A stretch of DNA of 33,393 nucleotides. Source: Burkholderiales bacterium (lineage in GTDB: Bacteria; Pseudomonadota; Gammaproteobacteria; Burkholderiales; Burkholderiaceae_C). Both the position numbers and the translations under genes were made by a program. The notes under the pieces are model-generated. The model did no database searches, was not told the DNA's origin, and saw only the letters and a program-made list of their open reading frames with translations. Below are positions 13,730-17,868 of this stretch, piece after piece. Position 1 is the first letter of the stretch, and every line of letters begins with the position of its first letter. The DNA is taken from positions 1-33,393 of the forward strand of contig JAEKKH010000161.1 of NCBI GenBank assembly GCA_019510465.1, in the 5' to 3' direction.

Positions 13730-14161
13730 TCAGCGGCCGCCGCTCGCCAGGTGCTCGCGCCGCAGCGCCTGCTGCAATGCCGCGATCGCCGCCTCGTCAC
13801 CATCGAGGAACACGCGCGCCTCGGGGCGGCGCGTCGCCGGGAAATGCACCTGCGCCCACCGGCTCAGCGAGGCGATCACCGGCAGCAGCGCGATGCCCGG
13901 CTCGGTGAGGCTGTAGATCGCCTTCTGCGCATGGGCGGGGTCGCCGGCGCGCGTGACCAGGCCGCGTTCGACGAGCATCGCCAGCCGGTCGGCCAGCACG
14001 TTGCTCGAGATGCCTTCCTCGGACTGGAGGAACTCGCGGAAGTGGCGCTTGCCCGCGAACATCATGTCGCGGATCACCAGCAAGGTCCAGCGGTCGCCGA
14101 CGATCTCGAGGCCGGTGCTGATCGGGCAGGTGGAGCGTGTGTCCTGGCGCATGGCTGGCAT
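13730..14161 (-). CDS. HxlR-family winged-helix transcriptional regulator
   Basis: The 143-residue protein has the HxlR (DUF24) fold. It starts with CPISTGLEIVGDRWTLLVIRDM, where Cys12 and the GDRWTLLV helix are family hallmarks. The recognition region FREFLQSEEGISSNVLADRLAMLVERGLV follows, then the wing and AIYSLTEPGIALLPVI. HxlR regulators bind inverted repeats as dimers and often sense electrophiles or redox through the N-terminal cysteine. It is divergent from a GFA-type gene across 78 bases containing two inverted repeats and a promoter, so that gene is its probable target. The ATG at 14161 is listed; an ATG nine bases downstream is equally possible. The 13663-13729 gap separates it from the flavin operon read in the same direction. 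Confidence 0.92.
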   Translation of the reverse strand: MPAMRQDTRSTCPISTGLEIVGDRWTLLVIRDMMFAGKRHFREFLQSEEGISSNVLADRLAMLVERGLVTRAGDPAHAQKAIYSLTEPGIALLPVIASLSRWAQVHFPATRRPEARVFLDGDEAAIAALQQALRREHLASGGR

Positions 14162-14171
14162 TCTAGAACCA

Positions 14172-14184
14172 CTTGCATTTCAAG
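14172..14184. promoter_or_regulatory. Inverted repeat CTTG-N5-CAAG, candidate HxlR operator
   Basis: CTTG (14172-14175) and CAAG (14181-14184) flank five bases and cover the -35 hexamer of the plus-strand promoter. A dimeric regulator bound here would block that promoter. The repeat is short and could be chance. Confidence 0.35.
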
Positions 14185-14201
14185 ATCGGTCTGCGTACGA
14201 T
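14173..14201 (+). promoter_or_regulatory. Sigma-70-type promoter of the GFA-like gene
   Basis: TTGCAT (14173-14178), a 17-base spacer and TACGAT (14196-14201) form a good promoter. The predicted start is near 14208, giving a leader of about 32 bases to the ATG at 14240. Confidence 0.65.
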
Positions 14202-14227
14202 GACTGCTATCGAAACAAAAGCAGTCA
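14201..14227. promoter_or_regulatory. Perfect 8-bp inverted repeat, candidate operator or leader hairpin
   Basis: TGACTGCT (14201-14208) and AGCAGTCA (14220-14227) are exact inverted copies separated by 11 A-rich bases. The left arm covers the end of the -10 box and the predicted start site; the right arm ends where the AAGGAG Shine-Dalgarno begins. It can be a regulator site or an RNA hairpin next to the ribosome site. Confidence 0.5.
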
Positions 14228-14239
14228 AGGAGACCGACC

Positions 14240-14662
14240 ATGAGCTATCAGCGCTACCACGGCAGTTGCCACTGCCAGGCCGTGAAGTACGAAGCCTCGA
14301 TCGACCTTGCCGACGGCAGCAACCGCTGCAACTGCTCGCTGTGCAGCAAGGTGCGGGCATGGTTCACGTTCGTGCCCGGCGAGCGTTTCCGCATCACCGA
14401 GGGCGAGGACGCGCTGTCGCACTACCGCTGGACACCCGCCAGCAAGGGCGAGCCCTTCCTCGACTACGCGTTCTGCTCGCGCTGCGGCATCCGCCTCTAC
14501 GGCAGCGGCGACGCGCCGCAGATGGGCGGGCGCTTCTACGCGGTCAACGTGCCGACGCTGGGCGACGTCGACCGCGAGGCGCTCGTGGCCGCGCCGCTGC
14601 GCTTCATCGATGGCGCGCACGACCGCTTCGACCGCGCGCCGGAGGACACGCGGCTGATGTGA
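14240..14662 (+). CDS. GFA/CENP-V family zinc protein
   Basis: This 140-residue protein belongs to the family named after glutathione-dependent formaldehyde-activating enzyme (Gfa). The cysteines expected to bind two zinc ions are Cys10 and Cys12 (SCHC), Cys30, Cys32 and Cys35 (CNCSLC), and Cys79 and Cys82 (FCSRCG). The family adds glutathione to formaldehyde or related small aldehydes, or has unknown substrates; most small bacterial members are not biochemically characterised. A clear AAGGAG (14227-14232) lies 7 bases before the ATG, and a promoter with two dyads precedes it. Control by the divergent HxlR regulator is the natural prediction. It ends 4 bases from the convergent DUF3455-like gene, with no room for a terminator. 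Confidence 0.92.
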   Translation: MSYQRYHGSCHCQAVKYEASIDLADGSNRCNCSLCSKVRAWFTFVPGERFRITEGEDALSHYRWTPASKGEPFLDYAFCSRCGIRLYGSGDAPQMGGRFYAVNVPTLGDVDREALVAAPLRFIDGAHDRFDRAPEDTRLM

Positions 14663-15803: not shown

Positions 15804-16304
15804 TCACCAGCCGGGCGATACGTACTTGTTGCCGTGCGCCTGGTAATCGGCGATCGCCGCCCTGAGCTGCGTGGCCTGCTCGCATGGCCCGCCGCAGACG
15901 GCCTGCAACGTCGCCAGCCGGGCCTGGGCCCTGGGCAGGTCGCCCTTCATCAGGGACAGCTCGCCGGAATACTCCAGCGTGTTGCGGTGGTGCGGATCGA
16001 TGCGCAACGCCGCGTCGTAGTACTTCTCGGAGCCCGCGAGGTCGGGGCTCCTGCCCTTGCGCAGCGTGAAGCCCATCAGGTTGTTCCAGTCGGCGCTGCC
16101 GGTGTCGTCGACGCGGCGCAGTTCGTCGAGCGCGCCGCTCCAGTTGCGGGCGGCGATCAGCGTGCGGGCCTGGACGAGCCGGTCGGCGGACGCCCGCGCC
16201 GGCGGGGCTTCGGCGGGACTGTCGGACGCCTGCGCGAGCGCGGCGCCGAGCGCCAGGAGGGCGGCCGTGGCGGCCAGGGTGAGAGTGCGATGGATGGCTT
16301 GCAT
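15804..16304 (-). CDS. Exported TPR-repeat protein of the ECF locus
   Basis: The 166-residue protein has a signal peptide (about 1-26, core [19 protein letters not shown]). Two or three helix-turn-helix repeats of TPR type follow, for example [19 protein letters not shown] and [20 protein letters not shown] (about 69-105). Two cysteines (VCGGPC, about 137-142) near the C terminus could form a disulfide. The family's function is not known to me. ATG 16304 is chosen over an ATG 12 bases upstream because GGAG stands 7-8 bases before it. A promoter with the TGATCC-N18-TAAG pattern precedes it at 16353-16380. It is the first gene of an inferred operon with sodC and the DUF3455-like lipoprotein. 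Confidence 0.82.
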
Positions 16305-16352
16305 GAGGGTCTCCATTTGACGTTCGACGGGAAGTCCGAGGAATCCCACGCA

Positions 16353-16380
16353 CTTACGCAGCCGGCCGGCCGACGGATCA
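16353..16380 (-). promoter_or_regulatory. Candidate ECF-sigma promoter of the TPR-sodC-DUF3455 operon
   Basis: The minus strand reads TGATCC (16380-16375), 18 bases, then TAAGTGCGTG with TAAG at 16356-16353. The same TAAGTGC element, with TCC at the same spacing, lies upstream of the ECF sigma gene (17841-17868). TGATCC-N18-TAAG also resembles promoters described for RpoE-ChrR-type ECF factors. The ATG at 16304 is about 50 bases downstream. Confidence 0.6.
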
Positions 16381-16408
16381 CGGTGGGCGAAAAAAAGTTT
16401 CGAACCTG

Positions 16409-17155
16409 TCACCAGACTTTCGCGCAGGCTCCCTCCGCAATGAACGGACGCGTCGGCGAGCCCGGGGCGGCGCCGTCGGCCTCGTTGCTCAGTCCCAGGT
16501 GCGTCATCTTGCCCAGTAGCGCTTCGGCCGGAGCGGGCAGCGCGATGGTCGAAGTCTGGCCGGCGGTGGTCCAGCCGCCGACGCGCCGCGGCGCGGGGTC
16601 GGCGTCGCTCCAGGCCCACACGGTCAGGGCGTGGCCGGGCTCGATCGCGACGGGCCGCAGCAGCCGCACCGTGAGCACGGTGCCGCGGCGGCGCGCGGTG
16701 GTGGCCAGCAGCGCGCGGCCTTGCGGATCCTGCAGCACGCCGACGTAGCTGGCGGGCGCGGCGCCCGAGGCCGCTTCCAGGTCGAAGGCCTGCGGCCGCA
16801 GCACCATCACCGACCAGGACAGCAACGCGCCCGCCACGAGCCCCACCGGCCAGCGCAGCCAGCCCGCGACCCCGCCAGCGGGTGCGCGCCGCCCCCGCGC
16901 GTCACCCGAGGGCGCGCGCACGTGCTCGAACAGGCGCTGCTGCACCCCGTCCCACACGCGCGCCCGCGGCTCCGGCGCGGGCGGCGCGCCCTGCTCCAGC
17001 GTCTGCAGCACGTCCTGCCAGTCGGCCACGGCCTTGGCGGCGACGGCCGAGCCGGCCACGACGCGCGTGAAGCGGCGTGCCGCGCCCGGCGACAACGTGC
17101 CCGACGCGTGGGCGCGGGCGAGGGCATCGAGGAGCTCGGGCCGGAGATAGTTCAT
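16409..17155 (-). CDS. RskA-type anti-sigma factor
   Basis: The 248-residue protein is a single-pass membrane regulator. A cytoplasmic N-terminal region (about 1-100) would bind the sigma factor; the membrane span is about 103-119 (WPVGLVAGALLSWSVMV). The periplasmic C-terminal domain (about 125-248) resembles the RskA (anti-sigma K) domain, with YVGVLQDPQGRALL, GHALTVWAWSD and ALLGKMTHLGLSNE. No HxxxCxxC zinc motif is present. Its ATG overlaps the sigma-factor stop by four bases (ATGA), the usual layout for a sigma/anti-sigma pair made in fixed ratio. The signal that releases the sigma factor is unknown; the neighbouring sodC suggests oxidative or envelope stress. A T run follows the stop but without a convincing stem. 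Confidence 0.9.
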   Translation of the reverse strand: MNYLRPELLDALARAHASGTLSPGAARRFTRVVAGSAVAAKAVADWQDVLQTLEQGAPPAPEPRARVWDGVQQRLFEHVRAPSGDARGRRAPAGGVAGWLRWPVGLVAGALLSWSVMVLRPQAFDLEAASGAAPASYVGVLQDPQGRALLATTARRRGTVLTVRLLRPVAIEPGHALTVWAWSDADPAPRRVGGWTTAGQTSTIALPAPAEALLGKMTHLGLSNEADGAAPGSPTRPFIAEGACAKVW

Positions 17156-17748
17156 GAGGCGGCCATCCCGCGGCGCTGCAGGCACGTCCTCAGGTAGTCG
17201 AGGCCGCGGCGCACCCAGGCCTTGGCGGTGCCCAGCGGCGCCTCGAGCGCCTGCGCGACCTCCACGTGCGTCAGCCCCTGGTAGTAGACGAGGGCCAGGG
17301 CCTGGCGCTGCGCCGGCGTCAGCTGTCCCATGCACTCCTGCACCCCGATGCGCTGGATGGCCGTGTCCAGCCACTGCTCGGGCCCGGCGCCGGGCGCGGC
17401 CATCGCGGCCATGCGTTCCGAATCGTCCTCGCCGCGCACGCTGACCCGCCCGGCCGAGCGCGAGCGGCGCAGGTCGATGGCGCGATGGCGCACGATGTTG
17501 ATCAACCACGTCATCGGCAACCCCAGGCGCGCGTCATACAGGCCGGCCGAATGCCAGACCTTGACGAACGCGTCCTGCAGCGCCTCCTCGGCCAGGTCGC
17601 GATGCTGCAGGACGCGCCATGCGATGGACATGAGGGTGCCGGACGTCGCGCGATACAGCTGCTCGAAAGCCTGCCGGTCGCCCAGGGCGACGCGCGACAG
17701 CCAGCGCGCCAGGTCGTCGTTGTCGGGTGGGTCGTTGCGGGTGGCCAT
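17152..17748 (-). CDS. ECF-family RNA polymerase sigma factor
   Basis: The 198-residue protein has sigma region 2 at about 22-98 (DRQAFEQLYRATSGTLMSIAWRVL, then LAEEALQDAFVKVWHSA and the -10-contacting MTWLINIVRHRAIDLRR). Sigma region 4 lies at about 130-192 (LTPAQRQALALVYYQGLTHVEVAQAL, APLGTAKAWVRRGL). With an overlapping RskA-type anti-sigma gene it resembles SigK-like ECF factors. It should direct RNA polymerase to stress promoters once released from the membrane-bound partner. A promoter-like sequence with the same TCC-N18-TAAGTGC arrangement as the TPR-sodC promoter lies 93-120 bases upstream, suggesting autoregulation. No Shine-Dalgarno is obvious before the ATG at 17748. Confidence 0.95.
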   Translation of the reverse strand: MATRNDPPDNDDLARWLSRVALGDRQAFEQLYRATSGTLMSIAWRVLQHRDLAEEALQDAFVKVWHSAGLYDARLGLPMTWLINIVRHRAIDLRRSRSAGRVSVRGEDDSERMAAMAAPGAGPEQWLDTAIQRIGVQECMGQLTPAQRQALALVYYQGLTHVEVAQALEAPLGTAKAWVRRGLDYLRTCLQRRGMAAS

Positions 17749-17840
17749 GGTGCAGGCGTGATCCGGCGGCGCCGTCGGACGAGCGGCGGCGCGATCTTAT
17801 GTCCGTTGGGCGAGACCTGCCCGCGCCAGGGACGCATGCA

Positions 17841-17868
17841 CTTACGGTGCGGCCGTCCGAACGGACGC
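17841..17868 (-). promoter_or_regulatory. Candidate autoregulated promoter of the ECF sigma gene
   Basis: The minus strand reads GCGTCC (17868-17863), 18 bases, then TAAGTGCATG with TAAG at 17844-17841. Compared with the site at 16353-16380, the TCC, the spacer length and TAAGTGC-x-TG are shared, but the left hexamer lacks the TGA. The leader to the ATG would be about 85 bases. The rest of the 17749-17992 gap shows no gene. Confidence 0.5.

Follow-up and report, generated by a model that had tools for sequence, protein, structure and literature searches.

The 33,393-nucleotide stretch of a Burkholderiales genome analysed here (contig JAEKKH010000161.1; hereafter, the window) probably encodes an ECF sigma switch of the SigK/RskA type, in which the sigma factor would raise transcription of the sigma and anti-sigma genes and of TPR-sodC-DUF3455 genes, and whose regulon is most likely directed against oxidative damage to the periplasm and the membrane. 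All elements lie on the minus strand, in the order sigma site, ECF sigma, anti-sigma, second site, TPR, sodC and DUF3455 (Table 1), and the products of the locus look exported. The targets of the regulon are well supported by the sites and gene sets described below; its role against oxidative damage we infer from the partner genes.

Table 1. Coordinates of the promoters and genes of the locus within the window.
Feature	Position	Strand	Basis
Predicted ECF promoter of sigma gene	17838..17868	-	GCGTCC-N16-CGTAAGTGC; motif scans of window and assembly
ECF sigma factor, 198 aa, SigK-like, cysteines 139 and 189	17152..17748	-	Pfam sigma r2/r4, PDB match, tree
RskA-like membrane anti-sigma factor, 248 aa	16409..17155	-	Family RskA_C, alignment, predicted model
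Predicted ECF promoter of TPR-sodC-DUF3455 genes	16350..16380	-	TGATCC-N16-CGTAAGTGC; motif scans; GCGTCC-N16/17-CGTANGT at the TPR gene in 17/17 loci of relatives
Exported TPR-type protein, 166 aa, core target	15804..16304	-	Alignment of 17 sequences; TPR label from orthologue L038
Periplasmic Cu,Zn superoxide dismutase SodC, 178 aa	15221..15757	-	PF00080; NF007628
DUF3455 protein, 185 aa	14667..15224	-	PF11937; predicted model

The original prediction had proposed an ECF regulon whose members are the sigma factor's own promoter and that of the TPR-sodC-DUF3455 genes, both laid out as TCC-N18-TAAGTGC-x-TG, and this proposal is supported by the sites, their rarity and their conservation. The two sites are exact matches on the minus strand, at 16350-16377 and 17838-17865 (3 bases from the ends first given); both extend as TAAGTGC-x-TG, and both stand 5' of predicted genes, one encoding the sigma factor and the other the TPR protein. 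The expectation for TCC-N18-TAAGTGC in the window is 0.01 by chance (mean of 100 shuffles, none of which held two), and TAAGTGC alone occurs only twice in the whole window, at these same sites. Across the source assembly, a 5.28 Mb draft in 516 contigs (89% complete; the window is contig C337), the full-genome scan returned the two window sites and nothing else, and the reversed-pattern control returned none. In promoter terms both read xxxTCC-N16-CGTAAGTGC, with a left box of TGATCC on the sodC (TPR) side and GCGTCC on the sigma side. The relaxed pattern GCRTCCN{16,17}CGTANGW matched three times in this genome, with only the sigma promoter outside coding sequence, and no strict form of the motif was found outside coding sequence beyond the two promoters; a two-mismatch scan proved too unspecific to use (147 matches vs 272 for the reversed control). 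TGATCC-N16/17-CGTA occurs five times in the assembly vs twice for its reversed control. One of the five, TGATCC-N17-CGTAGGC at G000:C461:13341-13367 (L399), lies 63 bases before a second exported TPR-repeat protein and may mark a third target, but is a candidate only, being one of five matches where two are expected from the control; the match on C481 coincides with the start of a Ser/Thr kinase frame, and those that remain besides the TPR site are unclear or probably coding. The YceI genes of this genome, and its second DUF3455 gene, had no good site upstream.

Conservation of the motif at orthologous loci had been named in advance as a test of the proposal, and at the TPR promoter the motif is conserved throughout: GCGTCC-N16/17-CGTANGT lies 5' of the TPR gene in 17/17 fetched loci that have one. 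These loci derive from a scan of genome contigs with the sigma factor, in which 119 loci were confirmed and 80 kept, and the 26 best, L033-L058, were examined closely (apart from L051, labelled Vitreoscilla, each bears a Burkholderiales name). Matches to sigma, anti-sigma and exported TPR protein occur together in 17 of these 26; two further loci hold a sigma of the same clade and no TPR match (L046 and L049), and in another two the contig ends too early for the TPR gene to be judged (L034 and L056). In L039 an opposite-strand gene stands between the anti-sigma gene and the stretch before TPR. The 17 orthologous TPR promoters carry GCGTCC and do not keep TGATCC, which is local to the window. 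Autoregulation, also part of the original prediction, is predicted for the window, where an exact site precedes the sigma gene, but is not supported as a general property: a strong site before the sigma gene is present in only 4/21 clade loci (L038, L039, L042 and L056; scores 19.9-21.1), with scores of at most 9.2 in the other 17, so autoregulation seems to come and go. The genes that follow TPR likewise vary, and include those for a PhoD-like phosphatase, a solute-binding protein, an ABC transporter, an outer-membrane efflux protein, a P450 and CobW. No sodC match was found in the 26 loci; among all loci examined, sodC adjoins TPR only in the window's genus (TPR-sodC-DUF3455 in G002, TPR-sodC in G003), and some sodC match is present in 30/60 relatives searched. 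sodC is a local addition to the regulon by this genus, a point that the original prediction missed, together with the unlinked b561-YceI, YceI and DUF3455 genes in the regulon of relatives. The sodC loci of other genera (L006-L032) were not counted as members, their best motif score being 13.2 vs 24.3 for the consensus. Separately, in Ancylobacter and related Alphaproteobacteria (L078, L083, L084, L099, L104 and L107), a related promoter type, GC(A/G)TCC-N16-CGTA(A/T)GAG, stands about 70-85 bases before the estimated start of a SigK-like sigma gene.

The independent part of the motif evidence is provided by sites that are unlinked to the sigma locus. GCGTCC-N16/17-CGTANGT is present in 65/200 family genomes, from which 105 distinct sites were fetched and read, and a site was taken as promoter-placed when less than half of it lay inside a called gene and it stood at most 250 bases before a gene on the same strand. 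(A looser scan of the 200 genomes, GTCCN{15,17}CGTANGT, was too unspecific.) Promoter-placed sites make up 15/35 in nine genomes of the sigma clade vs 1/70 in the other 191 (Fisher 7e-8), and still 7/27 vs 1/70 (4.5e-4) when the eight promoter sites at the sigma locus are removed; as some of the TPR promoters from which the motif was derived belong to these same species, and the counts in these related genomes are uncorrected for kinship, neither Fisher value is an independent test. The nine clade genomes had been picked by strength of match before the tree was made. Two genomes with matches about as strong, G104 and G208, were counted with the 191; both lack a GCGTCC site and fall in the other clade of the tree. 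Ten more with a weaker match only (39-48% identity; G008, G014, G074, G089, G105, G112, G161, G190, G200 and G213) are outside the tree and were also counted there. Five sites (L242, L250, L272, L274 and L276) were misfiled as coding through called frame starts, and the statistics use the uncorrected counts. Four of the seven unlinked promoter-placed sites precede DUF3455 (L243 and L247), a cytochrome b561-YceI pair (L244) or a YceI-YceI pair (L254), and start correction adds a b561-YceI pair (L242) and a YceI gene (L250). The other three, which count against the proposed regulon, precede a gene for a fatty acid desaturase (L330), a frame of 490 residues with no Pfam match (L255), and a called frame of doubtful start that matches a GntR/FCD regulator (L245). 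G093 has a weaker site, GCGTCC-N16-CGTAGAT (L310), upstream of a b561 gene that itself precedes YceI genes. Altogether, a site precedes a YceI gene or operon in 5/7 clade genomes with YceI matches, neither G146 nor the window's genome having one; the remaining two of the nine clade genomes lack any YceI match. The single promoter-placed site among the other 191 genomes (L382) heads a gene of the beta-lactamase fold.

The b561-YceI pairs correspond to lcoA-bcnA of Burkholderia cenocepacia, where paraquat induces both genes and membrane lipid peroxidation increases when they are lost (PMC9113575, partial text). In three relatives the motif precedes operons of this kind (two full sites and one weaker); that source names no sigma factor, using the word only twice and for a supplier, and the YceI genes of the window's genome are without a good site. 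DUF3455 is tied to both sigma clades, although not everywhere. Among 24 DUF3455 genes, the GCGTCC form was found within 250 bases upstream in two and GCATCC-N16-CGTA(A/T)G(A/G) in four (L230, L282, L284 and L291), with neither form in the remaining 18, including the window's own, which lies inside an operon; eight of the 24 come after a sigma/anti-sigma pair from the second clade, and a GCATCC-N16-CGTAAGG or CGTAAGA site is present at three of them (L230, L282 and L284). It could be argued that these genes serve a general envelope-stress or metal response, not an oxidative one, and that sodC is a passenger. The conserved target is TPR, and the genes behind it vary between loci as outlined above. 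Set against this are the b561-YceI, YceI and DUF3455 genes, and the fatty acid desaturase gene, among the unlinked targets in relatives, and we regard the broader response as somewhat unlikely.

Assignment of the promoters to the window's sigma factor draws on the tree. In a tree of 70 sigmas, all 20 that are linked to TPR, including the window's, fall in one 23-row clade (95/94). The genome holds a second SigK-like sigma (G000:C197:1639-2250, L240), 47% identical and with its own anti-sigma gene adjacent, which groups outside this clade with DUF3455-adjacent loci and has GAATCC-N16-CGTAG upstream. This paralogue could conceivably be the main user of one or both promoters, given its adjacent anti-sigma gene and its upstream GAATCC-N16-CGTAG, the GCATCC-type sites at three of the eight DUF3455 genes of its clade, and the fact that three sister genomes (G001, G002 and G003) have no TPR-clade sigma, their four matches all falling in the paralogue's group. 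Conservation of the TPR promoter, however, tracks the clade of the window's sigma, and G003, which has the paralogue only, keeps a TPR-sodC pair elsewhere without the motif upstream, a natural control of one instance only (in G002 the contig starts 38 bases before the TPR frame, leaving the promoter unreadable). A main role for the paralogue is improbable; it may share promoters with the window's sigma. In the second clade, L218 and L220 (from G208 and G104) show a parallel design, with two GCATCC-N16-CGTAAGA sites per locus, one before the sigma gene and one before the DUF3455 gene that follows the anti-sigma gene.

By sequence, the window's sigma is closest to SigK among solved sigma factors. 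Its nearest PDB sequence is SigK of M. tuberculosis (4nqw; E 1.6e-25), the next solved relative being Rhodobacter SigE (E 5.1e-12), and the only cysteines that it has, 139 and 189, line up with a pair of SigK cysteines whose spacing of 50 residues equals that of C133 and C183. The pair is kept in 79/81 aligned sigmas, and the two without it, L059 and L060, lie apart from the others in the tree. A C133/C183 pair is reported for 94% of ECF18, 56% of ECF19 and fewer than 2% of other groups; when oxidized it stabilizes SigK-RskA, and its reduction frees SigK (PMC7509140, partial text), from which it follows that simple activation by oxidation need not be expected here. The likeness to the SigK-RskA systems of M. 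tuberculosis and Yersinia enterocolitica (ECF18/ECF19) thus spans sigma sequence, cysteine pair and a neighbouring partner of the RskA_C family, and the difference lies in the targets: MPT70 and MPT83 for M. tuberculosis SigK (PMC7509140, partial text), as against TPR, DUF3455 and SodC here, and b561-YceI in relatives. RpoT of Pseudomonas putida is, by description, another Gram-negative ECF18 factor with its anti-sigma in the operon, but controls few units, including the TtgGHI solvent pump (PMC3597554, partial text).

The original prediction had compared the TGATCC box of the TPR site to the promoters of RpoE-ChrR-type factors (ECF11; Rhodobacter, Shewanella and Pseudomonas). The shared core, TCC-N16-CGTA, stands, as does the theme of oxidative stress, and RpoE-ChrR of Shewanella also has a periplasmic target (PMC4336711, partial text); the closer match to SigK and the absence of TGATCC from the 17 TPR promoters speak against a likeness beyond that core. 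The core is common to ECF11 and SigK-like factors and cannot by itself separate them. The ECF11 consensus, TGATCC-N16-CGTA (PMC5507510 and PMC4336711, partial texts), fits the TPR site, and neither the sigma site nor the TPR promoters of the 17 relatives, whose minus-35 is GCGTCC. Further, ChrR is a cupin anti-sigma, whereas no cupin was found in the window's anti-sigma or in 19 members of its family, which has RskA_C instead, and membership of the RpoE-ChrR group was accordingly rejected. The one Cupin_7 gene found in the assembly encodes a 169-residue cupin with no anti-sigma domain in Pfam; it sits at a contig end with its upstream neighbour cut off, and ChrR is likely absent from the genome, as far as this 89% complete draft represents it. 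That the TGATCC-N16-CGTA promoter is read by an RpoE-ChrR factor from another part of the genome, its likeness to the local promoter being no more than a resemblance, is highly improbable, for despite its fit to the ECF11 consensus and the excess of TGATCC-N16/17-CGTA over the reversed control, the one Cupin_7 gene found lacks an anti-sigma domain in Pfam, the relatives' TPR promoter reads GCGTCC, and both window sites have CGTAAGTGC in common. ECF26 of Sinorhizobium meliloti shares an ECF factor with membrane anti-sigma and a cytochrome b-like target, but its consensus is GGAATA/GT (PMC6180224, partial text), and this class was rejected because the window sites read TGATCC and GCGTCC where it has a GGAATA minus-35.

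The anti-sigma had been described as RskA-like, and its family bears this out, with RskA_C in 17/19 aligned members. The window's own copy has no Pfam match (none to RskA_C at 0.1) and an NCBIfam anti-sigma match below cut-off (37.8 bits vs 100), and aligns with family members at 36-43% identity. Its predicted model comprises four helices, one membrane helix and a beta domain, an arrangement in which the helices would be cytoplasmic and the beta domain periplasmic. Residues 134-248 (window 16412-16756), the predicted periplasmic domain, are modelled with a Cu,Zn superoxide dismutase fold: the best VIA-align match has a Z of 10.5 with rmsd 2.8 over 108 residues, and the 50 matches listed are all superoxide dismutases or close kin, such as the SOD1 copper chaperone, a SOD-like Bacillus protein and a respiratory supercomplex with a SOD subunit; Foldseek returned nothing for the model at E 0.001 (best E 1.4e-3). 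The histidines of the anti-sigma alignment all stay below 80% conservation, which makes a metal site unexpected, and a single cysteine (C244) is invariant. Fold likeness alone shows no function.

With respect to the exported products, SodC scores 186.5 bits against NF007628 (NCBIfam cut-off 165). The window's TPR protein has no Pfam match and takes its label from orthologues, for example L038 (TPR_19, E 1.8e-6); its cysteines 137 and 141 are invariant in 17/17 aligned sequences, which suggests a disulfide or metal site. The DUF3455 protein has an N-terminus that is lipobox-like as judged by eye, and its predicted model is a beta-barrel (pLDDT 89.5), for which Foldseek gave no match at E 0.001 and which VIA-align places near beta-barrel Diels-Alderases and dirigent proteins (Z up to 9.4), a hint of fold only. 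Just past the operon (window 13730-14662), a gene for an HxlR-type regulator adjoins a divergent GFA-domain (glutathione-dependent formaldehyde-activating-like) gene.

For the SigK/RskA-type switch, we propose, by analogy with SigK-RskA, that the membrane anti-sigma keeps the sigma factor bound and lets it go once an envelope signal reaches the anti-sigma's periplasmic domain, and that the freed sigma would start transcription at (GCG/TGA)TCC-N16/17-CGTANGT. In the window's organism this would raise expression of the sigma and anti-sigma genes and of the TPR-sodC-DUF3455 genes, and thus of an exported superoxide dismutase, a TPR protein and a putative beta-barrel lipoprotein, with SodC expected to remove periplasmic superoxide; in relatives, the same site precedes TPR and unlinked cytochrome b561-YceI, YceI and DUF3455 genes. 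Given these gene sets, the regulon most likely serves to prevent or repair oxidative damage to the periplasm and the membrane, and the cysteine pair of the sigma probably adds redox control as in SigK. A bolder and unlikely version posits a dedicated periplasmic defence against superoxide and lipid peroxyls, made up of SodC, b561-YceI, DUF3455 barrels and the cysteine-paired TPR protein, and controlled by a SigK-like factor that has the conserved redox cysteine pair and is restrained by an anti-sigma whose periplasmic sensor has the SOD fold but lacks the metal ligands; if true, the sensor would be a superoxide dismutase-like domain turned signal receiver.

The switch is thus of a known kind, and its target set apparently undescribed: titles and abstract openings in the open literature contained no description of such a regulon, which is weak evidence of novelty as most subscription journals were outside the scope of the search. 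These findings give a testable regulon to an ECF clade for which no description was found, and would tie DUF3455 and a conserved exported TPR protein, both of unknown role, to periplasmic oxidative defence. They also suggest a regulator for lcoA-bcnA in some genera.
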